Shown in pieces: positions 38,366 through 63,614 of a stretch of 64,000 bases of DNA. Under the pieces are notes generated by a model. The model saw only the letters and a program-made list of their open reading frames with translations, was not told the DNA's origin and searched no databases. The stretch is taken from NCBI GenBank assembly GCA_037043455.1, contig JAWPHD010011480.1, positions 19,514 to 83,513 of the forward strand. Direction: 5' to 3'. The translations under genes and the position numbers were made by a program. Position 1 is the first letter of the stretch. Every line of letters begins with the position of its first letter. The DNA is from Cyrtodaria siliqua. Lineage: Eukaryota; Mollusca; Bivalvia; Adapedonta; Hiatellidae.

Positions 38366-38443
38366 GGCAACAAATGATGAGAGATCAGATCTTAACACAA
38401 TTATGTTGATACTGTAAAAATGTCTGAACCACTGAGTGTTGCC
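38366..38443 (+). ncRNA. Box C/D snoRNA-like unit A1
   Basis: The terminal stem GGCAACA/TGTTGCC (7 bp) encloses C box ATGATGA at 38374-38380 and D box CTGA at 38432-38435, each one base from the stem. The D-box guide is ATGTCTGAACCA, and GTTGATA could be a weak C' box. At 78 nt it has a usual C/D snoRNA length, and it lies on the LTV1 sense strand inside an intron. A snoRNA is inferred from structure; expression is unknown. Confidence 0.6.
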
Positions 38444-38894
38444 GCATATTTGTTTAATTCTTTCTGAAACAATAATGGTCTCCACCCAATGAATACTACA
38501 ATGTCCAGGAATGCTCATTAGTGGTCTCAACCCAATGCATCATCCAGGAATACTAACATGTCTAAACTCATTAATGGCCTCAACCCAATGTGTCATCCAG
38601 GAATGCTACAATGATGGAACTTATAAATGGTCTCAACCCAGTGTGTCGTCCAGGAATACTACAATGATAAAACTCATTAATGGCCTCAACCCAATGTGTT
38701 GTCCAAGAATGTTACAATGATAAAATTTATAAATAATCTCAACATCTGGGTAGTTGGTTTAATTTCTTTACTCAAGACAGACATTACCAAAATAAAGTGA
38801 AAGACTGAATAATATATATACATTTGTAGGACAAATTAAATAAGATTTCTATATTTCAGTGAAATGTGATCTAGCTGATAAATACATCTTATTT

Positions 38895-38972
38895 GGCAAC
38901 AAATGATGAGAGATCAGATCTTAACACAATTATGTTGATACAGTAAAAATGTCTGAACCACTGAGTGTTGCC
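38895..38972 (+). ncRNA. Box C/D snoRNA-like unit A2
   Basis: Same design as A1: stem GGCAACA/TGTTGCC, C box 38903-38909, D box 38961-38964, guide ATGTCTGAACCA. It differs from A1 at single positions in the middle. Confidence 0.6.
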
Positions 38973-39290
38973 GCAAATTTGTTTACTTGTTTCTGAAACA
39001 ATAATGGTCTGCACCCAAGGAATACTACAATATCCAGAAATTCTCATTAATGGTCTCAACCCAATGTGTCATCCTGGAATGCTACAATGATTATTAAACT
39101 TATAAATGATCTCAACCCAGTGTGATGTCCAGGAATGCTACAATGATAAAACTTATAAATAATCTCAACATCTGGGTAGTTGGTTTAGTTTCTTTACTCA
39201 AGACAGACATTAACAAAATAAAGTGAAAAACTGCATATATAGGACAGATTAAATAAGGTTTCTATATTTTATCTTAAATACATCTTGTTT

Positions 39291-39368
39291 GGCAACACAT
39301 GATGAGAGATCAGATCTTAACACAATCATGTTGATACTGTAAAAATGTCTGAACCACTGAGTGTTGCC
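39291..39368 (+). ncRNA. Box C/D snoRNA-like unit A3
   Basis: Stem GGCAACA/TGTTGCC, C box 39299-39305, D box 39357-39360, guide unchanged. The base between stem and C box is C instead of A. Confidence 0.6.
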
Positions 39369-39898
39369 TCAAATATATTTACTAGTTTCTTAAACATTAA
39401 TGGTCTCAGCACAGTGAATGCTACAATGTCCAGGAATGCTCATTAATGGCATATACCAAATGTGTCGTCCAGGTATGCTCATTAATGGCCTCAACCCAAT
39501 GTGTTGTCCAGGAATGCTGCAATAATTTAAACTCATTAATGGCCTCGACCCAATGTGTCGTCCAGGAATGCTGCAATAATTTAAACTCATTAATGGCCTC
39601 GACCCAATGTGTCATCCAGGAATGCTCATTAATGGTCTCAACCCAATGTGTCATCCAGGAATGCTACAGTGATTACCTCATTAATGATCTCAACCCAGTG
39701 TGTCGTCCAGGAATGCTACAATGATAAAACTTATAAATAATCTAAACGTCTGGGTAGTTGGTTTAGTTTCTTTACTCAAGACAGACATTAACAAAATAAA
39801 GTGAAAGACTGAATAATATATATACATTTGTAGGACAAATTAAATAAGATTTCTATATTTCAGTGAAATGTGATCTAGCTGATAAATACATCTTATTT

Positions 39899-39976
39899 GG
39901 CAACAAATGATGAGAGATCAGATCTTAACACAATTATGTTGATACAGTAAAAATGTCTGAACCACTGAGTGTTGCC
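39899..39976 (+). ncRNA. Box C/D snoRNA-like unit A4
   Basis: Stem intact, C box 39907-39913, D box 39965-39968, guide ATGTCTGAACCA. The unit sits just upstream of the MITE insertion at 40020. Confidence 0.6.
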
Positions 39977-40019
39977 GCAAATTTGTTTACTTGTTTCTGA
40001 AACAATAATGGTCTGCACC

Positions 40020-40528
40020 CACAGACATATTAACAAACAGATAGGAAACTTCCTATCTTAATCAATGAAGTAACCAAACTATCAAGTGGCACCTTAACCT
40101 TTCCTTCTATCTTGTCTCTCAATTATTCACCGATTTTGATGAGAATACATCCAAAAGATTCATAGTGAATAGAAAAATGGTATTATAATAATTTATGTTT
40201 ACTTTCAAAATAAGAAATTGTATAAAAAAATGTTTAAAGTTTAAAATGTCATCATTTTTCGCTTTTCTCTTAAAAAACAATGTTTTGACATAGTCAAAGT
40301 TTCCATCAAACTCCTTTTTTGCTCTCAATGTAAGAGAAAACAAAATACTATCATTGGAAAGAAAATTAAATTTGTGATGGTATTTGGCTTGAATGAAACT
40401 TGTATCTAGAAAACTCTTCATGATATGTGTGTTTAAAGTTGAGAAATATTTTGTGAAATTGTCGAACTGTGCCACTTGAAATTTACACAATTTCCATAGT
40501 GTCCAATCTATTTGTTATTAGGTCTGTG
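40020..40528. mobile_element. Inverted-repeat element inserted in the satellite
   Basis: Ends CACAGACATATTAACAAACAG and, inverted, CACAGACCTAATAACAAATAG. GCACC is duplicated at 40015-40019 and 40529-40533. The sister array unit at about 39002-39025 shows the empty site 'tctgcacccaagg', which proves insertion. The 509-bp interior has no recognisable protein; a 123-codon minus frame is AT-rich and without motifs. The insertion is younger than the array duplication. Confidence 0.82.
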
Positions 40529-40805
40529 GCACCCAAGGAATACTACAATATCCAGAAATTCTCATTAATGGTCTCAACCCAATGTGTCATCCTGGAATGC
40601 TACAATGATTAAACTTATAAATGATCTCAACCCAGTGTGATGTCCAGGAATGCTACAATAATAAAACTTATAAATAATTACAACATCTGGGTAGTTGGTT
40701 TAGTTTCTTTACTCAAGACAGACATTAACAAAATAAAGTGAAAAACTGCATATATAGGACAGATTAAATAAGGTTTCTATATTTTATCTTAAATACATCT
40801 TGTTT

Positions 40806-40883
40806 GGCAACACATGATGAGAGATCAGATCTTAACACAATCATGTTGATACTGTAAAAATGTCTGAACCACTGAGTGTTGCC
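40806..40883 (+). ncRNA. Box C/D snoRNA-like unit A5
   Basis: C box 40814-40820, D box 40872-40875, stem and guide as in A3. Part of a 596-bp unit. Confidence 0.6.
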
Positions 40884-41401
40884 TCAAATATATTTACTAG
40901 TTTCTTAAACATTAATGGTCTCAACACAGTGAATGCTACAATGTCCAGGAATGCTCATTAATGGCATATACCAAATGTGTCGTCCAGGTATGCTCATTAA
41001 TGGCCTCAACCCAATGTGTTGTCCAGGAATGCTGCAATAATTTAAACTCATTAATGGCCTCGACCCAATGTGTCGTCCAGGAATGCTGCAATAATTTAAA
41101 CTCATTAATGGCCTCGACCCAATGTGTCATCCAGGAATGCTACAATGTCCAGGAATGCTCATTAATGGTCTCAACCCAATGTGTCATCCAGGAATGCTAC
41201 AGTGATTAACTCATTAATGATCTCAACCCAGTGTGTCGTCCAGGAATGCTACAATGATAAAACTTATAAATAATCTCAACATCTGGGTAGTTGGTTTAGT
41301 TTCTTTACTCAAGACAGACATTAACAAAATAAAGTGAAAAAATGCATATATAGGACAGATTAAATAAGGTTTCTATATTTTATCTTAAATACATCTTGTT
41401 T

Positions 41402-41479
41402 GGCAACACATGATGAGAGATCAGATCTTAACACAATCATGTTGATACTGTAAAAATGTCTGAACCACTGAGTGTTGCC
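41402..41479 (+). ncRNA. Box C/D snoRNA-like unit A6
   Basis: C box 41410-41416, D box 41468-41471. Identical to A5 across the unit and exactly 596 bp downstream of it. Confidence 0.6.
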
Positions 41480-41997
41480 TCAAATATATTTACTAGTTTC
41501 TTAAACATTAATGGTCTCAACACAGTGAATGCTACAATGTCCAGGAATGCTCATTAATGGCATATACCAAATGTGTCGTCCAGGTATGCTCATTAATGGC
41601 CTCAACCCATTGTGTTGTCCAGGAATGCTGCAATAATTTAAACTCATTAATGGCCTCGACCCAATGTGTCGTCCAGGAATGCTGCAATAATTTAAACTCA
41701 TTAATGGCCTCGACCCAATGTGTCATCCAGGAATGCTACAATGTCCAGGAATGCTCATTAATGGTCTCAACCCAATGTGTCATCCAGGAATGCTACAGTG
41801 ATTAACTCATTAATGATCTCAACCCAGTGTGTCGTCCAGGAATGCTACAATGATAAAACTTATAAATAATCTCAACATCTGGGTAGTTGGTTTAGTTTCT
41901 TTACTCAAGACAGACATTAACAAAATAAAGTGAAAAAATGCATATATAGGACAGATTAAATAAGGTTTCTATATTTTATCTTAAATACATCTTGTTT

Positions 41998-42073
41998 GGC
42001 AACACATGATGAGAGATCAGATCTTAACACAATCATGTTGATACTGTAAATGTCTGAACCACTGAGTGTTGCC
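41998..42073 (+). ncRNA. Box C/D snoRNA-like unit A7
   Basis: C box 42006-42012, D box 42062-42065. Two A residues are lost before the guide ('gtaaatgtctg'), giving 76 nt. Boxes, stem and guide are intact. Confidence 0.58.
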
Positions 42074-42189
42074 CCAAATATATGTACTAGTTTTATAAAC
42101 AATAATGATCGCAATCCATTGAATGCTACAATGTCTGGGAATGCTCATTAATGACCTCAGTCCAATGTGTCATCCAAGAATGCTACAAT

Positions 42190-44010
42190 GATTAACTCAT
42201 TAATGATCTCAACCCGTGTGTCATCCAGGAATGCTGCAATGATAAACTCATTAATAATCTCAACCCAGTGTGTCATCCAGGAATGCTGCAATGATAAACT
42301 CATTAATAATCTCAACCCAGTGTGTCATCCTGGAATGCTACAATGATAAACTCATTAATAATCTCAACCCAGTGTGTCATCCAGGAATGCTGCAATGATA
42401 AACGCATTAATAATCTCAACCCAGTGTGTCATCCTGGAATGCTACAATGATAAACTCATTAATAATCTCAACCCAGTGTGTCATCCAGGAATGCTGCAAT
42501 GATAAACTCATTAATAATCTCAACCCAGTGTGTCATCCTGGAATGCTGCAATGATAAACTCATTAATAATCTCAACCCAGTGTGTCATCCAGGAATGCTG
42601 CAATGATAAACTCATTAATAATCTCAACCCAGTGTGTCATCCAGGCATGCTGCAATGATAAACTCATTAATAATCTCAACCCAGTGTGTCATCCTGGAAT
42701 GCTGCAATGATAAACTCATTAATAATCTCAACCTCGTGTCATCCTGGAATGCTGCAATGATAAACTCATTAATAATCTCAACCCAGTGTGTCATCCTGGA
42801 ATGCTGCAATGATAAACTCATTAATAATCTCAACCCAGTGTGTCATCCAGGAATGCTGCAATGATAAACTCATTAATGATCTCAACCCAGTGTGTCATCC
42901 AGGAATGCTGCAATGATAAACTCATTAATAATCTCAACCCAGTGTGTCATCCTGGAATGCTGCAATGATAAACTCATTAATAATCTCAACCCAGTGTGTC
43001 ATCCTGGAATGCTGCAATGATAAACTCATTAATAATCTCAACCCAGTGTGTCATCCAGGAATGCTGCAATGATAAACTCATTAATAATCTCAACCCAGTG
43101 TGTCATCCTGGAATGCTGCAATGATAAACTCATTAATAATCTCAACCCAGTGTGTCATCCTGGAATGCTGCAATGATAAACTCATTAATAATCTCAACCC
43201 AGTGTGTCATCCTGGAATGCTGCAATGATAAACTCATTAATAATCTCAACCCAGTGTGTCATCCTGGAATGCTGCAATGATAAACTCATTAATAATCTCA
43301 ACCCAGTGTGTCATCCTGGAATGCTGCAATGATAAACTCATTAATAATCTCAACCCAGTGTGTAATCCAGGAATGCTGCAATGATAAACTCATTAATAAT
43401 CTCAACCCAGTGTGTCATCCAGGAATGCTGCAATGATAAACTCATTAATAATCTCTACCCAGTGTGTCATCCAGGAATGCTGCAATGATAAACTCATTAA
43501 TGATCTCAACCCAGTGTGTCATCCAGGAATGCTGCAATGATAAACTCATTAATAATCTCAACCCAGTGTGTCATCCAGGAATGCTGCAATGATAAACTCA
43601 TTAATGATCTCAACCCAATGTGTCATCCAGGAATGCTGCAATGATAAACTCATTAATAATCTCAACCCAGTGTGTCATCCAGGAATGCTGCAATGATAAA
43701 CTCATTAATAATCTCAACCCAGTGTGTCATCCAGGAATGCTGCAATGATAAACTCATTAATAATCTCAACCCAGTGTGTCATCCAGGAATGCTGCAATGA
43801 TAAACTCATTAATAATCTCAACCCAGTGTGTCATCCTGGAATGCTGCAATGATAAACTCATTAATAATCTCAACCCAGTGTGTCATCCAGGAATGCTGCA
43901 CTGATAAACTCATTAATAATCTCAACCCAGTGTGTCATCCTGGAATGCTGCAATGATAAACTCATTAATAATCTCAACCCAGTGTGTCATCCTGGAATGC
44001 TACTGTGATA
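42190..44010 (+). repeat. Homogeneous 52-bp tandem array
   Basis: About 35 head-to-tail copies of a 52-bp unit (core 'ctcattaataatctcaacccagtgtgtcatcc' then 'aggaatgctgcaatgataaa'), differing mainly at 'ccagg' versus 'cctgg'. It is a local expansion of the monomer found scattered through the larger array. The high similarity points to recent amplification. Spacers do not vary, so it is a satellite and not a CRISPR-like array. Confidence 0.95.
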
Positions 44011-44151
44011 ACATTTAATAATCACAACATCTGGGTAGTTGGTTTAAATTCTCTACTCAAGTCCAACATTAAAAAAATAAAGTGAAAAACTGCATATAAA
44101 GGACAAATTAAATAACGTTTCTATATTTTATCTTATAAATACATCTTGTTT

Positions 44152-44229
44152 GGCAACAAATGATGAGAGATCAGATCTTAACACAATCATGTTGATACTG
44201 TAAAAATGTCTGAACCACTGAGTGTTGCC
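44152..44229 (+). ncRNA. Box C/D snoRNA-like unit A8
   Basis: Follows the 52-bp expansion. C box 44160-44166, D box 44218-44221, stem GGCAACA/TGTTGCC, guide unchanged. Confidence 0.6.
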
Positions 44230-45856
44230 GCAAATACATACTCGCCATTAAAAAAAGATACCTCCTTTTTTGCTGGTATTCCCATGGTCTCAATTGAATG
44301 TGTCGTCCAGGAATGCTACAATGATTAAACTCATTAATGGCCTCAACCCAATGTGTCCTCCAGAAATGCTAAATGTCCAGGAATGTTAAATTGATTAACT
44401 CATTAATGGTCTCATCCCAATGTGTCATCCAGGAATGTTGCAATGATTAACTCGTTAATGATCTCAACCCAATGTGTCATCCAGGAATGCTACAATGATT
44501 TACTCATTAATGGTCTCAACCCAATGTGTCTTCCAGGAATGCTACAATGATTAACTCATTAATGGTCTCAACCCATTGTGTCATCCAGGAATGCTACAAT
44601 GATTAACTCATTAATGACCACAACCCAATGTGTCGTCCAAAAATGTTACAATGATAACATTTATAAATAATCTCAACATCTGGGCAGGTGGTTTAATTTC
44701 TTTACTCAAGTCCGACATTAGAGTGATCTATCCAGCAAATTTCTGCTTTAAAATTGATAGGTCACCAGCTTGCTTTCTGATGTATCTTTAAATAAATATG
44801 ACCCATATTCTGTTTTTGGCAAATTTCTTATAATTTTAGTCACAAACCCATTGAATGCTGCAATGTCCGAGAATGCTCATTAATGGCCTCAACCCATTGT
44901 GTCATCCAGAAATGCTCATTAATGATTTCAACCCAATGTGTCATCCAGGAATGCTATAATGATAAAACTCAGTAATGGCTTCAACCCAATGTGTCGTCCA
45001 TAAATGCTCATTAATGGTTTCAATCAAATGTGTCGTCCAGGAATGCTATAATGATTAAACTCATTAATAGCCTCAACTCAATGTGTCATCCTGGAATGCT
45101 TCAATGATTAAACTCATTAATGGCCTCAACCCAATGTGTCGTCCAGGAATGCTACAATGATTAAACTCATTAATGGCATCATCCCAATGTGTCTTCCTGG
45201 AATGCTACAGTGATTAAACTCATTAATGGCCTCAACCCAATGTGTTGTCCAGGAATGTTACAATGATTAACTCATTGATGGTCTCAACCCAATGTGTTGT
45301 CCAGGAATGTTACAATGATTAAACTCATTAATGGTCTCAACCCAATGTGTTGTCCAGGAATGCTGCAGTGATAAACTCATTAATGGCCACAACTCAATGT
45401 GTCGTCCATAAATGCTCATTAATGGTTTCAATCAAATGTGTCGTCCAGGAATGCTATAATGATTAAACTCATCAATGACCTCAACACAATGTGTCGTCCA
45501 GGAATGTTACAATGATAAACTCATTAATGGTTTCAACCCAATATGTCGTCCAGGAATGCTACAATGATTAAACTCATTAATTGCGTCAACCCAATGTGTT
45601 GTCCTGGAATGCTACAGTGATAAAACCCATTAATGACTTCTACCCAGTGTATCATCATGGAATGCTGCAATTATTAACTCATTAATGGCCTCAACCTAAT
45701 GTGTCATCCAGGAATACTACAATGATAACATTTATAACAATCTCAACATCTGGGCAGTTGGTTTATTTATTCAAGTCAAGTAAAAAAGTAAAGTGAAAAA
45801 CGGCATATATAGGACAGATTAAATAAGGTTTATTTCAGTGAAGTGTGATCTAGCTG

Positions 45857-45937
45857 GGCAACAAATGATGAGAGATCAGATCAGATCAGATCTTTCATGC
45901 TGATACTGTAAAAATGTCTGAACCATTGAGTGTTGCC
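45857..45937 (+). ncRNA. Box C/D snoRNA-like unit A9, probably defective
   Basis: The stem and C box (45865-45871) are kept. The D box reads TTGA (45926-45929), and the middle has a 'cagat' expansion and loses the 'cttaacacaatcatg' segment. Likely a dead copy. Confidence 0.4.
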
Positions 45938-46608
45938 TCAAATATATTAACTAGTTTCTTAAACATTAATGGTCTCAACACAGTGAATGCTACAATGTCC
46001 AGGAATGCTCATTAATGGCCTCAACCCAATGTGTCTACCAGGAATGCTCATTAATGGCCTCAACCCAATGTGTCATCCAGGAATGGTACAATGATAAAAC
46101 TCATTAATGGTCTCAGCCCAATGTGTCGTCCAGGAAAGCTACAGTGATTAAACTCATTAATGGCTTCAGCCCAATGTGTTGTCCAGAAAAGCTCATTAAA
46201 TGCCTCAACCCAATGTGTCGTCCAGGAATGCTACAATGTTTAAACTCATTAATAATCTCAACCCAATGTGTCGTCCAGGATTGCTACAATGATTAAATCA
46301 TTAATGTCCTCAACCCAATGTGTCATCCTGCAATGCTGGAATGATTAAACTTATAAATGGTCTCAACCCAATGTGTTGTCCAGGAATGCTACAGTGATAA
46401 AACTCCTTAATGGTCTCAACCCAATGTGTACTCCAGGAATGCTACAATGATAACATTTATAATAATCTCAACATCTGGTTGGGTGGTTTAATTTCTTTAC
46501 TCAAGTCAGACATTAAAGTGAAAAACTGCATATATACATGTAGGACAGATTAAATAAGGTTTCTATATTTCAATGAAGTGTGATTTAGCTGATAAATACA
46601 TCTTGTTT

Positions 46609-46686
46609 TGCAACTCATGATGAGAGATCAAATCTTAACACAATCATGTCGATACTGTAAAAATGTCTGAACCACTGAGTGTTGCC
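46609..46686 (+). ncRNA. Box C/D snoRNA-like unit A10
   Basis: C box 46617-46623 and D box 46675-46678 are intact. The first stem base changes from G to T (TGCAAC against GTTGCC), leaving five pairs. C' region reads GTCGATA. Confidence 0.5.
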
Positions 46687-46898
46687 GCAAATATATTTAC
46701 TTTTTCTGAAACATTAATAGTCACAAACCCATTGAATGCTGCAATGTCCGAGAATGCTCATTAATGGCCTCAACCCGTTGTGTCATCCAGAAATGCTCAT
46801 TAATGATTCAACCCAATTTGTCGTCCAGGAATGCTTTAATGATTAAACTCATTAATGACCTCAACCCAATGTGTCATCCAGGAGATCTACAGTGATTA

Positions 46899-47433
46899 GG
46901 CCAGAAAAAAAAATACCCGTGTTTCTGGTTACTCTGCTGAAAAAATTAGGGTAGGTAGGTCGGTAAATTTTTTCTTTTCTTTTTTTTTTTCTTTTTTTTT
47001 TTTGCCCATGTGTTTTGGACGATGTTAAAGGTATCTTTAACTTTGTCAAGTAGTTAATTTATAGTGATTTTGCAAGGAGAGAAGGAAAATAACCTCATGA
47101 TATCTTCTTAACTTGTTTGTTTTGAATAAAATAAATTGAAAACACATATGTTTTGCCATTACGAGTTTACATACGATTGAATTTTATAATTTTCCAGAGG
47201 CTGAGTGGTCATGGAAGAACAAATCTGCTGGCAGCATGTCATGATTAATGTTTTTCATAACTTCTACTCTGTCCCATGGCTGCATTTTCCAATACGAATA
47301 GCCAAAACGGGTTTTAGCGCATGTTCCGTACTCAATCTTTTCGTACATTACCGTTTCGTACCCAGGTTTTTCATACTTTTTTTTTTTTTTTGATAAAAAA
47401 CTGTAGGGTCGGCGCCAAAAAATAGGGACTAAA
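46899..47433. mobile_element. Insertion interrupting the satellite
   Basis: Array sequence is broken at 'agtgatta' and resumes at 'tgattaaactcattaatgg', so TGATTA is duplicated (46893-46898, 47434-47439). The insert contains 'attagggtaggtaggtcggtaaa', related to the start of the element at 30409, and long T-tracts at 46970-47003 and 47379-47391. No protein recognised. Confidence 0.6.
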
Positions 47434-48032
47434 TGATTAAACTCATTAATGGCCTCAACTCAATGTGTCATCCTGGAATGCTGCAATGATTAAACTCATT
47501 AATGGCCTCAACCCAATGTGTCATCCAGGAATGCTACAATGATTAAACTCATTAATGACATCAACCCAATATGTCGTCCTGGAATGCTACAGTGATTAAA
47601 CTCATTAATGGTCCCAACCCAATGTGTTGTCCAGGAATGTTACAATGATTAACTCATTGATGGTCTCAACCCAATGTGTTGTCCAGGAATGTTACAATGA
47701 TTAAACTCATTAATGGTCACAACTCAATGTGTCGTCCAGAAATGCTCATTAATGGTTTCAACCCAATGTGTCGTCCAGGAATGCTACAGTGATAAAACCC
47801 ATTAATGACTTCTACCCAGTGTATCATCATGGAATGCTGCAATAATTAACTCATTAATGGCCTCAACCTAATGTGTCATCCAGGAATACTACAATGATAA
47901 CATTTATAACAATCTCAACATCTGGGCAGTTGGTTTATTTATTCAAGTCGAGTAAAAAAGTAAAGTGAAAAACTGCGTATATAGGACAGATTAAATAAGG
48001 TTTCTATATTTCAGTGAAGTGAGATCTAGCTA

Positions 48033-48110
48033 GGCAACAAATGATGAGAGATCGGATCTTAACACAATCATGTTGATACTGTTAAAATGTCTGAACCACT
48101 GAGTGTTGCC
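48033..48110 (+). ncRNA. Box C/D snoRNA-like unit A11
   Basis: C box 48041-48047, D box 48099-48102, stem GGCAACA/TGTTGCC, guide intact. The upstream flank is shortened compared with A1. Confidence 0.58.
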
Positions 48111-48420
48111 TCAAATATATTGACTAGTTTCTTAAACATTAATGGTCTCTACACAGTGAATGCTACAATGTCCAGGAATGCTCATTAATGGCTCTACCAA
48201 ATGTGTCGTCCAGAGTTGTAACAATGATAAAACTCATTAATGACCTCTACCCAGTGTGTCAACCTGGAATGCTACAATGATAACATTTATAATAATCTGA
48301 AGATCTGAGCAGTTGGTTTAATTTCTTTATTCAAGTCAAGTAAAAAAGTAAAGTGAAAAACTGCGTGTTTAGGACAGATTAAATAAGGTTTCTATATTTC
48401 AGTGAAGTGTGATCTAGCTG

Positions 48421-48498
48421 GGCAACAAATGATGAGAGATCAGATCTTAACACAATCATGTTGATACTGTAAAAATGTCTGAACCACTGAGTGTTGCC
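48421..48498 (+). ncRNA. Box C/D snoRNA-like unit A12
   Basis: C box 48429-48435, D box 48487-48490, stem and guide intact. It is 388 bp downstream of A11. Confidence 0.58.
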
Positions 48499-48859
48499 TC
48501 AAATATATTTACTAGTTTCTTAAACATTAATGATTTCAACACGGTGAATGCTACAATGTCTGGGAATGCTCAATAATGGCTCTACCAAATGTATCGTCCA
48601 GAATTGTTACAATGATAAAACCCATTAATGACCTCTACCCAGTGTGTCATCCTGGAATGCTGCAATAATTAACTCATTAATGGCCTTAACCCAATGTGTC
48701 CTCCAGGAATGCTACAATGATAACATTTATAATAATCTCAACATCTGGGCAGTTTGTTTAATTTCATTGTTCAAGTAAGTAAAAAAGTAAAGTGAAAAAC
48801 GGCATATATAGGACAGATTATATAAGGTTTCTATATTTCAGTGAAGTGTGATCTAGCTG

Positions 48860-48938
48860 GGCAACAAATGATGAAAAAATCAGATCTTAACACAATCATG
48901 TTGATACTATAAAAATGTCTGAACCACTGAGTGTTGCC
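48860..48938 (+). ncRNA. Box C/D snoRNA-like unit A13
   Basis: C box 48868-48874, D box 48927-48930, stem intact, guide intact. 'gagatc' after the C box has become 'aaaaatc', adding one base. Confidence 0.56.
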
Positions 48939-49707
48939 TCAAATATATTCTGAAACATTAATTGTCACAAACCCATTGAATGCTACAATATTCGCGAATG
49001 CTCGTTAATGGCCTTAACCCATTGTGTCATCCAGAAATGCTCATTAATGGTTTCAACCCAATGTGTCGTCCAGGAATGCTATAATGATTAACTCAGTAAT
49101 GGCCTCAACACAATGTGTCATCCAGAAATGCTCATTAATGGTTTCAACCCATGTGTCATACAGGAATGCTACAATGATAAAACCCATTAATGATCTCAAC
49201 CCTATGTGTCGTCCAGGAATGCTACAATGAAAAAACTGATTAATGGTCATAACCGAGTATGTTGTCCAGTAATACTACAGTGATTAAACTCATTAATGAC
49301 CTCAACCCAGTGTGTCATCCAGGAATGTTACAATGATAACCTCATTAATGGTCTCAACCCAATGTGTCGTCCAGGAATGTTACAATGATAAACTCATTAA
49401 TGGCCTCAACTCGGTGTGTCGTCAAGGAATGCTCATTAATGGTTTCAACCCATGTGTCATACAGGAATGCTACAATGATAAAACCCATTAATGATCTCAA
49501 CCCTATGTGTCGTCCAGGAATGCTACAATGAAAAAACTGATTAATGGTCATAACCGAGTATGTTGTCCAGTAATACTACAATGATAAAACTAATGGTCTC
49601 AACCCAGTGTCATCCAGGAATGTTACATTGATAAAAAAATCATTAATGGTCTCAACCCAATGTGTCGTCCAGGAATGCTACAATGATAAAACTCATTAAT
49701 GGACTTA

Positions 49708-49930
49708 GCGTCTCCATGGCCGATTGGTTAACGATGTTGCGTTCGTACGAATCCCACTGGGAGCTCGACTTGTAAGTGAGGAAGTGTCTATTCTTACGCA
49801 TGGCGTGAGGCGTACAGTACTGGTTCTACCCAGGAAAAGTGGGTGGTCTGCCTCCACCACAAAAAATCAGCCATCATATATAACCTTACATGTGTTGAAA
49901 AGTACGTAAAACACCATACGAACAAACAAA
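49708..49930 (+). mobile_element. tRNA-derived SINE
   Basis: The head resembles a tRNA gene: 'tggccgattggtta' as A box and 'gttcgtacgaatcccac' around the B box, which is the part that recruits RNA polymerase III. The body has 'gtactggttctacccaggaaaagtgggtggtctgcctcc', shared with 21878-22018, and the tail ends 'cgtaaaacaccatacgaacaaacaaa'. It interrupts the satellite near its right edge. No target duplication found. Confidence 0.75.
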
Positions 49931-50194
49931 TGAACCCAATCTGTTACCCAGGAATGGTACAATGATTTATTTATGTTTTTAAATACTTTTTTTAAGATTT
50001 TTTATATGCTTGTTAGAAAGTATGATTTTCCTGCAGGGTGGATATTTTGTGTGGAGCAGATTCATGCGAGAAAGACCTAGTGATCATGAACTCCTGTTTA
50101 TTCCAGCAGATTAGTCAGTGGTATTTATGGCAGTCACTGGAGCTATAACATAAGTTTTCCAGTTTCTGTACTGACAAATACGATTCTGAAATAA

Positions 50195-52205
50195 ATGGTA
50201 GTGAGAAATTGTGTTTATGGATCGTGGATGATAATGCTCCCAGTGATAATGCTGAGTGGAAGGTTGTGAGAACTTGTGTTTATGGATCCTGGGTGGTAAT
50301 GCTCCCAGTGATAATGTGGAGTGGAGGGTAGTGAGAACTTGTGTTTATGGATACTGGATGATAATGCTCCCAGTGACAATGTGGAGTGGAGGGTAGTGAG
50401 AACTTGTGTTTATGGATACTGGATGATAATGCTCCCAGTGACAATATGCAGTGAAAGGTAGTGAGAACTTGTGTTTATGGATCCTGGATGATAATGCTCC
50501 CGGTGATAATGTGGAGTGGAAGGCTGTGAGAACTTGTGTTTATGGATGCTAGAACTTGTGTTTATGGATGCTGGATGGTAATGCTCCCAGTGACAATATG
50601 GAGTGAAAGGTAGTGAGAACTTGTGTTTATGGATCCTGGATGATAATGCTCCCAGTGACAATATGGAGTGAAAGGTAGTGAGAACTTGTGTTTATGGATC
50701 CTGGATGATAATGCTCCCAGTGGAGTTGTGGGTAGTGAGAACTTATGTTTATGGATCCTGCATGATAATGCTCCCAGTGATAATGTGGAGTAGTAGGTAG
50801 TGGGAACTTTTGTTTATGGATCCTGCATGATAATGCTCCCAGTGACAATGTGTAGTGGAGGGTAGTGAGAACATGTGTTTATGGATCCTGGATGATAATG
50901 CTCCCAGTTTCAATGTGGAGTGGAGGGTAGTGAGAACATGTGTTTATGGATCCTCGATGATAATGCTCCCAGTGACAATGTGTGGTGGAGGGTAGTGAGA
51001 ACTGTGTTTATGGATCCTGGATGATAATGCTCCCAGTGACAATATGCAGTGAAAGTTAGTGAGAACTTGTGTTTATGGATCCTGGATGATAATGCTCCCG
51101 GTGATAATGTGGAGTGGAAGGCTGTGAGAACTTGTGTTTATGGATACTGGATGGTAATGCTCCCAGTGACAATATGGAGTGAAAGGTAGTGAGAACTTGT
51201 GTGTATAGATCCTGGATGATAATGCTCCCAGTGACAATATGGAGTGAAAGGTAGTGAGAACTTGTGTTTATGGATCCTGGATGATAATGCTCCCGGTGAT
51301 AATGTGGAGTGAAAGGCTGTGAGAACTTGTGTTTATGGATACTGGATGGTAATGCTCCCAGTGACAATATGGAGTGAAAGGTAGTGAGAACTTGTGTTTA
51401 TGGATCCTGGATGATAATGCTCCCAGTGGAGTTGTGGGTAGTGAGAACTTATGTTTATGGATCCTGCATGATAATGCTCCCAGTATTAATGTGGAGTAGT
51501 GGGTAGTGGGAACTTTTGTTTATGGATCCTGCATGATAATGCTCTCAGTGACACTGTGTGGTGGAGGGTAGTGAGAACTTGTGTTTATGGATCCTGGATG
51601 ATAATGCTCCCAGTGACAATTTGTAGTGGAGGGTAGTGAGAACTTGTGTTTATGGATCCTGGATGATAATGCTCCCGGTGATAATGTGGAGTGGAAGGCT
51701 GTGAGAACTTGTGTTTATGGATGCTAGAACTTGTGTTTATGGATGCTGGATGGTAATGCTCCCAGTGACAATATGGAGTGAAAGGTAGTGAGAACTTGTG
51801 TTTATGGATCCTGGATGATAATGCTCCCAGTGACAATATGGAGTGAAAGGTAGTGAGAACTTGTGTTTATGGATCCTGTATGATAATGCTCCCAGTGGAG
51901 TTGTGGGTAGTGAGAACTTATGTTTATGGATCCTGCATGATAATGCTCCCAGTGATAATGTGGAGTAGTGGGTAGTGGGAACTTTTGTTTATGGATCCTG
52001 CATGATAATGCTCCCAGTGACAATGTGTAGTGGAGGGTAGTGAGAACTTATGTTTATGGATCCTGGATGATAATGCTCCCAGTGACAATTTGTAGTGGAG
52101 GGTAGTGAGAACTTGTGTTTATGGATCCTGGATGATAATGCTCCCAGTTTCAATGTGGAGTGGTGGGTAGTGAGAACTTATGTTTATGGACCCTGGATGA
52201 TAATG
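50195..52205 (+). repeat. 65-bp satellite array
   Basis: About 30 copies of a 65-bp unit with the core 'gagaacttgtgtttatggatcctggatgataatgctcccagtgacaatatgg'. A higher-order duplication of 1,175 bp is visible: 50410-50848 recurs at 51585-52023 with few changes. It differs in sequence from the array before it and lies in the same intron (LTV1 intron 4). Long frames on the minus strand here come from the repetition. Confidence 0.93.
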
Positions 52206-52274
52206 CTCCCAATGTCAGAGAATGTGGAGTGGATTCTTCTATATCTGCAGTTATTTCTAAGATTAAATACATTT

Positions 52275-52357
52275 GGCAATGAATGATGATAGAACAGACT
52301 GCTAAAGACACCTAGTCTAGTGCTGATGCTTATATGTCTGAACCACTGAGTATTGCC
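52275..52357 (+). ncRNA. Box C/D snoRNA-like unit B1 (divergent copy)
   Basis: Stem GGCAAT (52275-52280) with ATTGCC (52352-52357), C box ATGATGA 52283-52289, D box CTGA 52346-52349, guide ATGTCTGAACCA. Compared with unit A the stem changes C-G to T-A on both sides, a compensatory change. The middle is quite different and contains GCTGATG as a C'-like box. It lies between the 65-bp and 51-bp satellites. As an independently diverged copy it is stronger evidence than the array units. Confidence 0.68.
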
Positions 52358-52587
52358 TAGTAATAGTATATAGAGTAAACAATTTAAAGTTACATTTATA
52401 TATATAGTCCTGAATCTGCTCATTCTGCATACAATTGTAAACACAGATTTATTGCAACAGAGTTCATCTTGGTAGTATACATTTATTTGGGATTGGATAT
52501 AGTATGACAACTACAAATGTAATGTTTTAAGTTTGGTGAGAGGCCTTCCTCCTACCTGATCATACAACTCTGTAGTGCTATGCTTGT

Positions 52588-53204
52588 GAATGTTGTGATT
52601 GTTTCTTGACCACAGCCTGACCCGGGAACCAGATATTTTAAATGTTGTACTTGTTTCTGGACCACAGCCTGACTGGGACCCAGATATTGTAAGTGTTGTA
52701 CTTGTTTCAGGACCACAGCCTGACCCGGGACCCAGATATTGTAAATGTTGTACTTGTTTCAGGACCACAGCCTGATACATGTTGTACTTGTTTCATGACC
52801 ACAGCCTGACTGGGACCCAGCTATTGTAACTGTTGTACTTGTTTCATGACCACAGCCTGACTGGGACCCAGATATTGTAAATGTTGTACTTGTTTCATGA
52901 CCACAGCCTGACTGGGACCCAGATATTGTAAATGTTGTACTTGTTTCAGGACCACAGCCTGACTGGGACCCAGATATTGTAAATGTTGTACTTGTTTCAG
53001 GACCACAGCCTGAGTGGGACTCCGATATTGCAAATGTTGTACTTGTTTCAGGACCAAAACCTGACTGGGACCCAGCTATTGTAACTGTTGTACTTGTTTC
53101 AGGACCACAGCCTGACTGGGACCCAGCTATTGTAAATGTTGTACTTGTTTCTGGACCACAGCCTGATTGAGACCCAGATATTGTAAATGTTGTACTTGTT
53201 TCAG
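52588..53204 (+). repeat. 51-bp array of duplicated LTV1 exon 5 splice acceptors
   Basis: About twelve tandem copies of a 51-bp unit. Each unit has 20 nt of intron end (GTTGTACTTGTTTCAG-like) and 31 nt matching the start of exon 5 (GACCACAGCCTGACTGGGAC then CCAGATATTGT). The copies continue AAATG where the true exon has TGAGG. Six keep an intact TTTCAG/GA acceptor; others read TTCATGA or TTCTGGA. One copy (about 52761-52794) has lost 17 nt. The last copy before exon 5 carries an in-frame TGA at 53168-53170 and a broken acceptor. Confidence 0.93.
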
Positions 53205-55726: not shown

Positions 55727-55879
55727 GTAAGAATAAAAATAACGTTTTCAAAGGGTAAAGAAATGAGGTCTGTTTGTCACTCCTGGTTTCTGGAGCAGAA
55801 CTCAAATACAATTTTAGGTCAATTTTTGTTTCTGTGACAAACAATTCAATATTATGTAATCTAAGGTGACAAACTACCT

Positions 55880-55962
55880 GGCAACCATGATGATTAAGCA
55901 AATGGTAGAAGACAAGTTTGTCTGATGCTGATGAATTTATGTCTGAACCACTGAGTGTTGCC
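55880..55962 (+). ncRNA. Box C/D snoRNA-like unit B2 in LTV1 intron 7
   Basis: The fullest structure of the set. Stem GGCAAC (55880-55885) with GTTGCC (55957-55962), C box ATGATGA 55887-55893, D' box CTGA 55922-55925, C' box TGATGA 55929-55934, D box CTGA 55951-55954. The D guide is ATGTCTGAACCA, as in A and B1. The D' guide ends GACAAGTTTGT. It is a single copy in a 384-nt intron, sense to the host, the standard setting for an animal C/D snoRNA. The rRNA target is not assigned. Confidence 0.78.
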
Positions 55963-56110
55963 ATGGTGACAGTGGAAAAATGTGGTAGAAACTAAGATAT
56001 AAAATGATGTAAATACCACCTAAATTAACCTTAGTAACATGGCTTCATTATCATTTGTGGATTGTTTGTAATAAATATTGGTATGTCATCAATGGTCTCT
56101 CTACTGATAG

Positions 56111-57684: not shown

Positions 57685-58408
57685 GTATACAGTCAGTCAA
57701 TCTTGTTGATAATGGTTGATACAATGTACTGGTATATAGTCTGCAGTTTTCGCCCTTTTAGCTCCACTGGCTTTAGGCCAGCAGGGCTTTTGCAATAGCG
57801 CAGTGTCCGTCGGTGTGGGCGTTGAAGCACTTTGCTGAAACCCCTGGAACAATTTTACTGAAATTTATATGGATGCTTCTGTAATGGGGGTCATTCCTGG
57901 AATTGCCCTAATTTCATGTCAGAATGAATGTGCAATTATAAAAGCCCAATACTTCGTGAAGGAAAGATTCAACATTTAATATTCAATAGGTGTTGTTTAT
58001 CAGATGGAACACATGGTGTATACACATACACTATAAGAACCTTTCATGGGTATCCATTGGAAATCAAGAATTCCAACACAGGTACAATTGTTTTTTATTC
58101 AAACAGTTGTACCAAGGATTGGAATTTTCCTATCTTACCTGGATACCCTTGAAAGTTTCTTTTTCTTGCATATCATTGACATTTTGTTCATCGACATCAC
58201 CAACTACTAATGTTTTGCATGTTTATTTACACAATGATGTCATGAAACTGTTGACGTTATCGACTTCATTGTCAGTTTAAATAGTCCAAACATTAAAACA
58301 TCATCTCAAGAACCACTATTAAGTAAATATGTACATACTATAGCCATTGTGGAGGATTTCACTTCTTGGCATAAACCGACCGTGGCATTTTGGTTATAAA
58401 GTACTATC

Positions 58409-58751: not shown

Positions 58752-59335
58752 CAGTCAGAGCTCTAACCTTAAACAGTTACGTTTTTCATAACCCGTGACT
58801 GTTATTTAAAAAACATCAAAAAAACTGGGAAAGTAACCAGAATCAGTTACTACCACAAAATCATTCAAGTTTAGATGCATTCTATCTTCTGTACAGGAAT
58901 TTTCCCTATATATATATAATTTTCTCCAGTAGAGTGATTATTCAACTTTAAAACCATGCAATCAAATTCTATGAGCATGGATGAAAATCCATTGCGCAAG
59001 GCCTCTCAAGTTACCTACTGTCATGCAACAAAATTCATTTAAAAATCATTTTGTGGGCTCCAACATGATAATTAGTGAACAACTGCTAATTGGATCTTGA
59101 TGAAGATGTATTTATCCTTAATAATAAGTATTCAGACATAAATAAATAAATACTGCACATTTGGCAACTATTTCAATTTATTAGCAAATGATCTTTGGTA
59201 ACTGATTTAGGTTACATATGATTATTAGGGAAAAGTATCTGCTGCTCTTAACCAAAGGAAGATAATAATTTGGCATTTTTAATAACTTCCAGCAGTTATA
59301 AAACTTGTAACTGTTTAAGGTTAGAGCTCTGACTG
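58752..59335. mobile_element. MITE with 29-bp inverted repeats and 5-bp target duplication
   Basis: Perfect 29-bp ends: 58752-58780 starts CAGTCAGAGCTCTAACC and 59307-59335 is its complement. TTTAT is duplicated at 58747-58751 and 59336-59340. The other composite units show the empty site 'ctttataagc'. Similarity continues imperfectly for another 15 bp inward. The interior is non-coding. Confidence 0.88.
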
Positions 59336-59413
59336 TTTATAAGCTCGTTCAACATTATTGCCTTCTCCAAGATCATCGGGTGAGCGATTCAAGTTAATTG
59401 TTGAATACTTGTA

Positions 59414-59492
59414 GCAACACCTGATGTAAAAACAGACAGCTAATGACTTTATGTCACATGTTGATTCTTGTCTAAGGAACCACTGATGTTGC
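59414..59492 (+). ncRNA. Box C/D snoRNA-like unit C1
   Basis: Stem GCAACA/TGTTGC, C-like box CTGATGT 59421-59427 (weaker than in other copies), D box CTGA 59483-59486, sequence before D TGTCTAAGGAACCA. The right half ('catgttgattcttgtct...aaccactga') is homologous to unit A. Confidence 0.48.
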
Positions 59493-59798
59493 GCAATGTA
59501 TCTACATGTTTTGTTTGTACAAGCAGAACTTGTATGAAGTATATAATTAGTGATATTGTTAGTTCACTTGAGTCAAAGGCTCAGAGGTGAGGTGTTGGGA
59601 TTCGTCCGTCCAGCGTTAACTTGCTTTAAACTACTATTCCTCAGTATCAAAGATAGTTGCTGTCAGTTTAAATAGTCCAAACATTACTACAACATCTCAA
59701 GAATCACTATTAAGTAAATATGTGAATACTATAACCATTTTGGAGGATTTAATTTCTTGGCATGAACTGACTGTGGCATTTTGGTTATAAAGTACTAC

Positions 59799-60109
59799 CG
59801 CAGTGTGGCCTGGTGGCAGAGTGTCCGCCTCGCATGCAGGAGGATTTGGGTTCAGTCTCCAGTTGGGTCATACCAGACTTCATAATGGTACTAGTAGCAC
59901 CCTTGCTTGACGTTCAGCATATAAAGGATAGTTCTAGGACTGGTTGGCCCTGTGTCAATAAATTGTGACTAGGTGGGGTACCATGTCATGTATCTATGGT
60001 GTGATATTCCACTGTAAAGTTGAACATTGAGCTCACTGCTACAAGTAGCCACTGTCGTGATATGACAAAGATTGTTAAAAATCGACATTAAACCCCACAC
60101 ATACATATT
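59799..60109 (+). mobile_element. tRNA-derived SINE, composite unit 2
   Basis: The same SINE as at 58409, with 'tggcctggtggcagagtgtccgcctcgcatgc' in the head and 'cgacattaaaccccacacatac' at the end. Small deletions in the motif ('atgacaaagattgtt') suggest decay. Confidence 0.78.
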
Positions 60110-60212
60110 TGGTGAGAAAGTTATTAGTCTCAGTTTTATAAGCTATCTCGGCTTTTTTGCCTTCTCCAAGATCATCGGGTGAGCGATTCAAGGTAATTGG
60201 TGAATACTTGCA

Positions 60213-60291
60213 GCAACACATGATGTAAAAACAGACAGCTAATGACTTCATGTCACATGTTGATTCTTGTCTAAGGAACCACTGATGTTGC
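60213..60291 (+). ncRNA. Box C/D snoRNA-like unit C2
   Basis: Stem GCAACA/TGTTGC, C box ATGATGT 60220-60226 (one base from consensus), D box 60282-60285. GTTGATT is a possible C' box. 79 nt. Confidence 0.55.
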
Positions 60292-60584
60292 GCAATGTAT
60301 CTACATGTTTTGTTTGTACAAGCAGAACTTGTATGAAGTATATAATTAGTGATATATTGTTAGTTCACTTGAGTCAAAGGCTCAGGTGAGGATTTGTCTG
60401 TCCAGCATTAAATTTTGTTTTAAACTTCTCAGAAACTGCATGGTCAAATTTTGAGCAAGCTTCACATGATATCAAATATAGCCGTTGTTAGTTTAAATAG
60501 TCCAAACATTACAACTTCTTCTCAAGAATCACTATTACCATGATTACCTGAACTGACTGTGGGATTTTGGTTATAAAGTACTAC

Positions 60585-60889
60585 CGCAGTGTGGCCTGGT
60601 GGCAGTGTCCGCCTCGCATGCAGGAGGATTTGGGTTCAGTCTCCAGTTGGGTCATACCAGACTTCATAATGGTACTAGTAGCTCCCTTGCTTGACGTTCA
60701 GCATATAAAGGATAGTTTTAGGACTGGTTGGCCCTGTGTCAGTAAATTGTGACTAGGTGGGGTACCATGTCATGTATCTATGTCGTGGTATTCCACTATA
60801 AAGTTGGGCTCACGGCTACAAGTTCCCACCGTTGTGATATGACTGAAAGATTGTTAAAAATCGACATTAAACCCCACACATACATATTT
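60585..60889 (+). mobile_element. tRNA-derived SINE, composite unit 3
   Basis: Same family; 'ggcagtgtccgcctc' lacks 'ag' in the A-box region compared with unit 2, and a stretch before 'ctcacggctacaag' is deleted. Confidence 0.78.
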
Positions 60890-60991
60890 GGTGAGAAAGT
60901 TATTAGTCTCAGTTTTATAAGCTTGCTCGGCTTTTTTGCCTTCTCCAAGATCATCGGGTGAGCAATTCAAGGTAATTGGTGAATAGGTGTA

Positions 60992-61070
60992 GCAACACAT
61001 GATGTAAAAACAGACAGCTAATGACTTCATGTCACATGTTGATTCTTATCTAAGGAACCACTGATGTTGC
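60992..61070 (+). ncRNA. Box C/D snoRNA-like unit C3
   Basis: C box ATGATGT 60999-61005, D box 61061-61064, stem intact. One change in the D-side sequence (TATCTAAGG instead of TGTCTAAGG). Confidence 0.52.
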
Positions 61071-61365
61071 GCAATGTATCTACATGTTTTGTTTGTACAA
61101 GCAGAACTTGTATGAAGTATATAATTAGTGATATATTGTTAGTTCACTTGAGTCAAAGGCTCAGAGGTGAGGATTTGTCTGTCCAGCATTAAATTTTGTT
61201 TTAAACTTCTCAGAAACTGCATGGTCAAATTTTGAGCAAGCTTCACATGATATCAAATATAGCCGTTGTAAGTTTAAATAGTCCAAACATTACAACTTCT
61301 TCTCAAGAATCACTATTACCATGATTACCTGAACTGACTGTGGGATTTTGGTTATAAAGTACTAC

Positions 61366-61670
61366 TGCAGTGTGGCCTGGTGGCAGTGTCCGCCTCGCAT
61401 GCAGGAGGATTTAGGTTCAGTCTCCAGTTGGGTCATACCAGACTTCATAATGGTACTAGTAGCTCCCTTGCTTGACGTTCAGCATATAAAGGATAGTTCT
61501 AGGACTGGTTGGCCCTGTGTCAGTAAATTGTGACTAGGTGGGGTACCATGTCATGTATCTATGTCGTGGTATTCCACTATAAAGTTGGGCTCACAGCTAC
61601 AAGTTCCCACCGTTGTGATATGACTGAAAGATTGTTAAAAATCGACATTAAACCCCACACATACATATTT
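61366..61670 (+). mobile_element. tRNA-derived SINE, composite unit 4
   Basis: Nearly identical to unit 3, including the same small deletions, so it copied with the whole tandem unit and not by separate retroposition. Confidence 0.78.
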
Positions 61671-61772
61671 GGTGAGAAAATTATTAGTCTCAGTTTTATA
61701 AGCTTGCTCGGCTTTTTTGCCTTCTCCAAGATCATCGGGTGAGCGATTCAAGGTAATTGGTGAATACTTGCA

Positions 61773-61851
61773 GCAACACATGATGTAAAAACAGACAGCT
61801 GATGACTTCATGTCACATGTTGATTCTTGTCTAAGGAACCACTGATGTTGC
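61773..61851 (+). ncRNA. Box C/D snoRNA-like unit C4
   Basis: C box ATGATGT 61780-61786, D box 61842-61845, stem GCAACA/TGTTGC. 'gctgatgac' replaces 'gctaatgac' in the middle. Confidence 0.55.
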
Positions 61852-62166
61852 ACAATGTATCTACATGTTTTGTTTGTACAAGCAGAACTTGTATGAAGTA
61901 TATAATTAGTGATATTGTTAGTTCACTTGAGTCAAAGGCTCAGAGGTGAGGTGTTGGGATTCGTCTGTCCAGCATTAAATTTTGTTTTGAACTTCTCAGA
62001 AACTTCACGTGATATCAAAGATAGCCGCTGTTAGATTAAATAGTCCAAACATTACAACTTCTTCTCAAGAACCACTATTAAGTTAATATGTGCATACTAT
62101 AACCATTGTGGAGGATTTCACTTCTTGGCATGAACTGACTGTGGGATTTTGGTTATAAAGTACTAC

Positions 62167-62432
62167 CGCAGTGTGGCCTGTTGGCAGAGTGTCTGCCTCG
62201 CATGCAGAAGGATTTGGGTACAGTCTCCAGCTGGGTCATACCAGACTTCATAAGTAGCTCCCTTGCTTGACGTTCAGCAATAAATTATAACTGGGTTGGT
62301 TATCATATCATGTATCTGTGGCGTGGTATTCCACTATAAAGTTGAGCATTGAGCTCACTGCTACAAGTTCCCACCGTCGTGATAAGAATGAAATATTGTT
62401 AAAAATCGACGTTAAACCCCATACATACATAT
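62167..62432 (+). mobile_element. tRNA-derived SINE, composite unit 5
   Basis: Same family with a deletion after 'gacgttcagcaataaatt'. The conserved motif reads 'gataagaatgaaatattgtt' and the end 'cgacgttaaaccccatac'. Confidence 0.75.
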
Positions 62433-62543
62433 TTGGTGAGAAAGTTATTAGTCACAGCTTTATAAGCATAAAGCTTGCTCAGCTTTTTTGCCTTCTCGAA
62501 GATCATCGGGTGAGCGATTCAAGGTACTTGGTGAATACTTGCA

Positions 62544-62622
62544 GCAACACATGATGTAAAAACAGACAGCTAATGACTTCATGTCACATGTTGATTCTTG
62601 TCTAAGGAACCACTGATGTTGC
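62544..62622 (+). ncRNA. Box C/D snoRNA-like unit C5
   Basis: C box ATGATGT 62551-62557, D box 62613-62616, stem intact, guide TGTCTAAGGAACCA. Confidence 0.55.
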
Positions 62623-62724
62623 GCAATATATCTACACGCATTTATTGTAAAAATTATGATACAATCGTGATTACTAATATTCATTTTGCCAGACATATCA
62701 AACATAACAGAATTGGCATTTGTT

Positions 62725-63405
62725 AACCAGGTTTTCATTGACCTGGTTATTAGATTGGGTATGTCGTTTGGTTGGCGGGCGGATGGCGTCAAACTCTAAG
62801 TTTCCACTCAGTAACTTCAGCTGGAAATGAAGCTTGGGGTTGCATTTGGGGTCACTGAGGTCAAGGTCATTGTTACTAAAAATAGAAAACTGTTTCCGCT
62901 CAATAACTTAAGTAAGGAATGAGATATTAGAATGAAACTTACTGTTTAGGTGGCTTATATCAAAAGGAAGCTTGGGATTGCATTTGGGGGGTCACTAGGG
63001 TAAAGGTCATTGTAACTAAAAATAGAAAAACGGTTTCCGCTCAATAACTTAAGTTGGAAATGAAGTAGTGGAATGAAACTTGCTTTGTAGGTACCTTATA
63101 TGGAAAGGAAGCTTGGGATTGCATTTGGGGTCACTAAGGTCAAGGTCACTGTTACTAAAAATAGAAAACTGTTTCCGCTCAATAACTTAAGTAAGGAATG
63201 AGATATTAAAATGGAACTTACTGTTGAGGTGGCTTATATGAAAAGGAAGTTTGGGAGTGCATTTGGGGGTCATTGTTACTAAAAATAGAAAAACAGTTTC
63301 CGCTCAATAACTTTAGTTGGCAATGAGATAGTGAAACGAAACTTGCCTTTTGTTAGTTCATTTTCATCTTACCGTTACTGTAATAGCATTTCAAATGGAA
63401 AACCT
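62725..63405 (+). repeat. Dispersed repeat with about 135-bp internal units
   Basis: It starts near 'gttaaccaggttttcattgacctggttattagattggg' and ends near 'ggaaaacctggttttcgtgg'. Between them, units recur with 'gtcattgttactaaaaatagaaaactgtttccgctcaataactt' at about 62868, 63008, 63145 and 63270. Class unknown. It separates snoRNA-like units C5 and C6. Confidence 0.6.
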
Positions 63406-63535
63406 GGTTTTCGTGGAATTTCAACGTTTCTTTTTGTAAACTTGTTGCACTCTTTAATTGTAATATTTTCAATGTGCCAGACATAATTTGAACTTTTATG
63501 AACTATAGAATTGGTTGTATTTTTGAATACTTGAA

Positions 63536-63614
63536 GCAACATATGATGTAAAAACAGACAGCTAATGACTTGTTGTCACATGTTGATTCTTGTCTAAGGA
63601 ACCACTGATGTTGC
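63536..63614 (+). ncRNA. Box C/D snoRNA-like unit C6
   Basis: A lone copy outside the tandem repeat. Stem GCAACA/TGTTGC, C box ATGATGT 63543-63549, D box 63605-63608, TGTCTAAGGAACCA before D. The flanks shared with the other C units are short, so its conservation is partly independent. Confidence 0.58.

Follow-up and report, generated by a model that had tools for sequence, protein, structure and literature searches.

Candidate intronic box C/D snoRNA genes with two predicted rRNA targets, amplified in LTV1 of the bivalve Cyrtodaria siliqua

Based on the analysis reported here, we suggest that the gene LTV1 of the bivalve Cyrtodaria siliqua carries in its introns an amplified family of genes for box C/D small nucleolar RNAs (snoRNAs). 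The family lies in a 64,000-nucleotide (nt) stretch of contig JAWPHD010011480.1 (here the window, in whose numbering all coordinates are given unless another contig is named), where 21 plus-strand units between 38366 and 63614 fall into a group A of 13 units, two units B1 and B2, and a group C of six. Very probably these units represent snoRNA genes of the box C/D class that lie in introns and guide methylation of 28S ribosomal RNA (rRNA) in the case of A and B and of 18S rRNA in the case of C; from sequence, we infer their transcription and processing and the methylation itself.

The units stand out by the combination of their parts. A scan of both strands of the whole 64-kb window for RTGATGW, a CTGA starting 40-95 nt downstream and a terminal stem scoring at least 8 returned 19 units on the plus strand and none on the minus strand, compared with an average of 0.1 units, and never more than one, in 60 first-order Markov randomisations scanned on both strands. 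Thus, 19 of the 21 units have a terminal stem, a C box RUGAUGA (with A or U as its end letter) and a D box CUGA. The other two, which the strict scan missed, each have one altered box (the D box TTGA in the unit at 45857 and the C box CTGATGT in the unit at 59414). Because the C motif taken singly is at chance level (68 seen, 65 expected), the strength of the signal rests on box, box and stem together. By eye, C' and D' boxes are clear in B2 (TGATGA and CTGA, respectively) and degenerate in A, B1 and C. All 21 units have the orientation of the LTV1 exons, i.e. the sense orientation.

Directly 5' of the D box, all 13 A units, B1 and B2 carry ATGTCTGAACC-A. This guide is antisense to a 28S rRNA stretch beside the sarcin-ricin loop, as was confirmed computationally. 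An exact copy of the stretch, GAGGAACCGCAGGTTCAGACATTTGG, is present three times in the animal's own genome; one of these (L075) is the 3' end of large-subunit rRNA (RF02543, 480.8 bits, E=2.9e-128), another (L074) matches RF02543 with 182.5 bits, and the third (L073) has no Rfam match at the gathering score. Exact antisense to L075 extends over 13 nt in 12 A units and 11 nt in B1 and B2 and ends one base before the D box, i.e. an antisense element of at least 10 nt to the animal's own 28S rRNA is present upstream of D in these 14 units. The two strands of the window together have 514 CTGA sites; the 479 outside the units reached a maximum of 10 nt (at one site; 8 nt at seven), and 20000 shuffles of the A guide gave 11 or 12 nt in 7 cases and 13 nt in none. 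When units A1, B1, B2 and C2 were compared with human rRNA (the whole 18S and four pieces of 28S, 2694 nt), the D guide was the sole complementarity above threshold, and none of the D' guides of these units rose above threshold against the 18S or the 28S pieces.

In box C/D guides, the methylated base is the one paired five positions from the box (the D+5 rule; PMC1821038). On the A/B target in 28S rRNA, GGU[Um]CAGACAU, this register falls on the second U of GGUUCAG. In human numbering, we place this target so that GGUUCAG fits positions 4618, 4620 and 4623 in letters and spacing. With the numbering fitted in this way to a published table, the predicted A/B site would correspond to human 28S-Um4620, at which SNORD72 acts. 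The table lists Gm4618, Um4620 and Gm4623 and assigns 4620 to SNORD72 (PMC5597630). Guidance to the neighbouring Gm4618 or Gm4623 was considered and dropped because the D+5 register gives a U. The A and B units thus have the same predicted methylated base as SNORD72 (HBII-240). In chicken, however, HBII-240, assigned to 28S-U4075, lies in RPL37 and uses a 13-nt 5' antisense element, i.e. the D' element (PMC2653536), whereas in A and B the antisense is the D element and the host is LTV1. Because element and host both differ, A/B and SNORD72 probably do not descend from one gene.

The six C units carry a different guide, TCTAAGGAACC-A, before the D box. One C unit is identical to the Rfam SNORD42 model RF00150 over 15 letters, AAGGAACCACUGAUG, which comprise the guide, the D box and the start of the 3' stem. 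The C guide pairs with 9 nt of human 18S rRNA, and D+5 falls on base 116. There is a strong case by homology that the C units would target 18S UGGU[Um]CCUU, where the methylated U corresponds to human Um116, the SNORD42 site (PMC5597630). The D-side position of the guide is as in chicken U42 (SNORD42), which has a 12-nt 3' antisense element; the chicken gene lies in RPL23A (PMC2653536), whereas the C units are in LTV1, with six copies in the intron, and on other contigs. The animal's own 18S rRNA is predicted to contain TGGTTCCTTAGA, which would form 12 bp with the guide of the C units. A search with the start of 18S rRNA as query found 18 places in the assembly, of which six were read (L067-L072). 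One of them (L067; RF01960, 385 bits, rearranged) pairs over 12 positions, including one wobble, with the C guide; L069 and L072, which have no family match at the gathering score, pair over 10 positions followed by a mismatch; and L070 and L071 hold just the first 60-65 bases of 18S, followed by unrelated sequence. At 12 of the 18 places the match, with 91-98% identity, stops at query base 43-66.

The bodies of the units have diverged less than the DNA around them. Among the C units, pairwise differences are 36/1200 in the body and 494/3456 in the flank, with the body lower in 15 of 15 pairs; among the A units they are 349/6275 and 1418/13157, with the body lower in 69 of 78. Counting variable sites by parsimony gives 7/80 in the body and 182/253 in the flank for C, and 21/80 and 111/196 for A (14/81 and 110/198 without the unit at 45857), although the P values of this site test are not to be taken at face value because pairs share history and the satellite flanks are uncertainly aligned. 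The unit at 45857 has a body identity below its flank identity with four other A units. At positions 43-69 from the C box, which comprise guide, D box and 3' stem, there is one change among 13 A copies, namely in the D box of 45857; guide and boxes are intact in the other 12.

The host gene was identified from eight exon translations, taken from open frames and joined by hand, which match Pfam PF04180 (LTV) with E=1.2e-61. A genome-wide search with PF04180 (E<=0.001) gave four exon-sized matches, all on the units' own contig, and the last exon of LTV1 was not found among them. Intron 4 (36884..53204, plus strand), whose limits were read from GT/AG signals and exon ends, contains all 13 A units together with B1; its presumed acceptor is the last of a row, the acceptor being duplicated about 13 times. 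Between 52584 and 53235 there are about 13 tandem 51-bp copies of the 3' splice site with the first coding bases of the next exon (TTGTTTCAG joined to GACCACAGCCTGACTGGGACCCAGATATTGT at the junction); the final copy continues into the exon, and many rival acceptors thus stand in series. The first A unit (38366..38443) has the C box ATGATGA, the 13-nt 28S guide, CTGA and a 7-8 bp stem. Unit scan and 28S guide match also identify the A units at 38895..38972, 39291..39368, 39899..39976, 40806..40883, 41402..41479, 41998..42073 (with a 2-nt deletion 5' of the guide), 44152..44229, 46610..46685 (with a shorter stem), 48033..48110, 48421..48498 and 48860..48938. The ninth unit in order, 45857..45937, is decaying: its D box reads TTGA and its middle is changed, and the guide letters are retained. 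A 65/130-bp tandem array of about 30 copies (50197-52233) lies between the A array and B1 (52275..52357), which has the 11-nt 28S guide and a middle resembling C.

B2 (55880..55962, plus strand) has the 11-nt 28S guide, a D'-like CTGA and a C'-like TGATGA. No other unit was found in the intron around it (55727-56110), and 148 nt separate the end of B2 from the 3' splice site; the optimal distance of a snoRNA to the splice site is given as about 70 nt (PMC1821038). The presumed last intron has its donor at 57685 and stays open because the contig ends at window base 64000, so that its 3' end is unseen. Judging from this donor and from the absent C-terminus, the intron would be part of LTV1. The six C units lie 3' of the donor on the plus strand, at 59414..59492 (C box CTGATGT) and 60213..60291 (unit scan), both with the SNORD42-type guide, and at 60992..61070, 61773..61851, 62544..62622 and 63536..63614, found by unit scan and a weak Rfam match. 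By eye, a tRNA-like stretch resembling a short interspersed element repeats with the C units every 780-800 bp between about 58400 and 62420. In all, the original prediction of 21 plus-strand units, with 13 in an intron 4 satellite, one beside it, one in intron 7 and six in presumed intron 9, agrees with the exon and splice-site reading of positions 36000-64000. Its view of them as box C/D snoRNA genes in LTV1 introns, on the sense strand and locally duplicated, draws support from the boxes, the stems, the constraint and most of all the guides, which match known methylation sites.

The distribution of copies in the assembly differs between the groups. An A unit used as query (E<=0.001) gave 13 matches, all at this locus, and the exact A/B guide pattern ATGTCTGAACCNCTGA gave 16, of which 14 are here; the two outside matches have the same flanks and, by eye, no C box upstream. 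Searches with exact patterns, which diverged or respaced guides would escape, turned up the A/B guide with a D box in no C/D unit elsewhere in the assembly. The exact C pattern gave 31 matches: six here, 17 on two other contigs (C1919 and C148) and eight unrelated ones on other contigs. Eight of the 17 are complete units of the C type, seven of which share their C box with the units in the window; the other nine contain the 3' half only, and most of these sit in an 88-bp satellite. On C148, at about 603.2-608.0 kb of that contig, this satellite carries the 3' half of the C snoRNA (guide, D box and 3' stem) behind an unrelated upstream half, and whole or nearly whole C units stand at the head of both C148 satellite arrays. 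The eight whole copies lie within mutually matching stretches of 0.5-3.5 kb. Compared with the window C units, they differ at 173/3792 positions in the body (4.6%) and 1475/6691 in the alignable flank (22.0%), with the body lower in 48 of 48 pairs. Among the ten longest open frames of six loci fetched from C1919 and C148, several appear repeat-like by eye. Thus, the original prediction that a snoRNA gene spread within one host holds for A and B; as stated, it is not supported for the family, which has two specificities and C-type copies on two other contigs that may or may not belong to LTV1.

Some side observations concern rRNA sequences in other collections and the rest of the window. The 28S stretch had no match in the viral collection; the 18S stretch matched one contig there (L031), which has no rRNA match in Rfam. 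The bacterial metagenome-assembled contig JAMFSA010000192.1, filed as Mucilaginibacter, contains eukaryotic 28S rDNA, a contaminant, with two large-subunit pieces about 4.2 kb apart, as if there were an insertion in the rDNA. In the window, a 609-codon open frame on the minus strand (7774-9603) may encode a Mediator subunit 26-like protein, which it resembles by eye.

The three groups also bear on each other's origin. The region from C box to guide was compared between one unit per group (A1, B1, B2 and C2; six pairs, 4000 shuffles each). Of the 43 positions aligned between B1 and C2, 29 are identical, and no shuffle equalled the score of this pair (five did when the C' part was left out). With the C' part, 0/4000 shuffles scored as high for B1-B2, 36/4000 for A1-B1 and 74/4000 for A1-B2, and there was no clear signal for A1-C2 (399/4000) and B2-C2 (586/4000). 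Without it, the counts were 56/4000 for A1-B1, 48/4000 for B1-B2 and 1731 to 1944/4000 for the pairs A1-B2, A1-C2 and B2-C2. Because B1 is C-like in the middle and A/B2-like in the guide, it forms the link between the groups. The guides align as ATGTCT, a 3-nt gap and GAACCACTGA against TTGTCTAAGGAACCACTGA and differ by this indel and one base. On these sequence comparisons, B1 and C look paralogous, and a single family apparently switched its target between the ribosomal subunits; for A, B and C together, we infer a common origin. Because SNORD42 is a known vertebrate family with the C guide, while the chicken 28S guide is at D' and not at D, the C form would be the older one and A/B would have arisen from it by loss of 3 nt and one substitution, a direction taken from vertebrates only. 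Both targets share GGUUC and, therefore, part of the guide likeness may be convergence. As a tentative scenario, possible rather than probable, an LTV1 copy of SNORD42 was retargeted from 18S-Um116 to 28S-Um4620 (TTGTCTAAGGAACC to ATGTCTGAACC), took over the job of vertebrate SNORD72 and was amplified to 15 copies. The A at D-1 of the A/B units, which is complementary to 18S but not to 28S, would then be a leftover of the SNORD42 ancestry.

In the model that we propose, splicing of LTV1 would be followed by debranching and by trimming of the units to their stems, core C/D proteins would bind the C/D motif of the trimmed units, and 2'-O-methylation would fall on the rRNA nucleotide whose partner lies five positions upstream of the D box. 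B2, a single snoRNA in a short intron, would be released easily; the 14 units of one intron would need internal cuts or would leave snoRNA-ended long RNAs. B2 and some of the C units are the likeliest working genes, and the probable contribution of the A array is extra dosage or longer RNAs with snoRNA ends.

Several observations weigh against this model. Many guides per transcript, as originally proposed, are a possibility, and fourteen snoRNAs per intron would be awkward for exonucleolytic maturation. No Rfam family reaches its gathering score in a scan of the window, and the best match of B2 to Rfam snoRNA families has E=0.34. The best score of the C units with the SNORD42 model is 27.6 bits, below its gathering cut-off of 39, and we therefore call them SNORD42-like, or homologues, rather than members by score; moreover, snoR44_J54, a plant family, scores higher on them (up to 31.9, cut-off 48). 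Single-strand folding of four units was no better than that of shuffles (z -0.2 to -1.6). The exact expected 18S target, CAGTTATGGTTCCTTAGAYC, has 0 matches in the assembly, none of the three degenerate 18S copies that hold the target region among the six read gives the perfect 12 nt, and a further 18S-like copy (L068) differs at the target and does not fit the C guide. As to constraint, the body is the more diverged part in nine of the 78 A pairs, four of which involve 45857; pairs and sites are non-independent, and satellite flanks may be misaligned in the site test. Gene conversion confined to the bodies may also be a source of their low divergence.

Alternative explanations differ mainly in how many units they take to be functional. 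Chance resemblance within repeats is hardly credible: the C motif alone is indeed at chance level, but the randomised-sequence scan, the guide matches and the body constraint, in the window and relative to the outside copies, oppose it, and the 28S guide match by itself makes it very unlikely. A far more serious possibility, to which we give slightly less than an even chance, is that just one or a few units work (B2 and some C units), while the A array, like most C copies, has no dosage role and was merely carried along by satellite or segmental duplication. The A units are embedded among 52-53 bp satellites, 45857 is decaying, and the 88-bp satellite on C148 multiplies the 3' half of the C unit alone, so that amplification need not preserve function; however, the single change from guide to 3' stem (positions 43-69) in 13 A copies and the retention of guide and boxes in 12 of them speak against this reading.

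Alternatively, the arrays could mainly be a source of snoRNA-ended long RNAs or regulate LTV1 splicing. Two snoRNAs per intron can give rise to snoRNA-ended long non-coding RNAs (sno-lncRNAs; PMC11028025), and here 14 units share one intron; yet the exact retention of the guides would be superfluous for capping ends, and we consider this explanation unlikely. Quite unlikely, in our view, is that a mobile snoRNA-bearing repeat, such as a snoRNA retroposon, seeded several loci including LTV1. Such a repeat would account for the eight C-type copies on C1919 and C148, seven of them sharing their C box with the units in the window, but the mutually matching stretches of 0.5-3.5 kb around these copies look like segmental duplication, and the exact patterns found the A/B guide at no other C/D unit.

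Parallels to our model of LTV1-borne guide genes are known. In Drosophila, DmSnR60 a-d, in introns of mfl, likewise represent several isoforms of a 28S-guiding C/D snoRNA in one ribosome-related gene, but they number four and keep a conserved position before the splice site (PMC1821038), whereas the LTV1 family has 21 copies, 13 of them in a satellite array, and two targets. SNORD113/114, SNORD115/116 and rat Bsr likewise form large local tandem C/D arrays (PMC11028025); these belong to mammalian imprinted domains or long non-coding RNA, whereas the LTV1 array would supply rRNA guides from a protein-coding gene. In the open-access literature, among the matches listed, by their titles and the starts of their abstracts, no report stood out on snoRNAs in LTV1, on bivalve snoRNA guides or on an rRNA-guide array with two specificities in a protein-coding ribosome-assembly gene. 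What is new here is the prediction of what the units guide, with sites in 28S and 18S and, thus, two specificities.

A guide family in one gene with two rRNA specificities would show concretely how snoRNAs can acquire new targets and take each other's place. If the retargeting scenario is true, guides for the two ribosomal subunits come from a single gene of 40S assembly. The LTV1 intron is also a hard case for the number of snoRNAs that can be released per intron, and the 15 copies directed at one predicted site would constitute a natural dosage series with which to ask whether rRNA methylation follows guide copy number.

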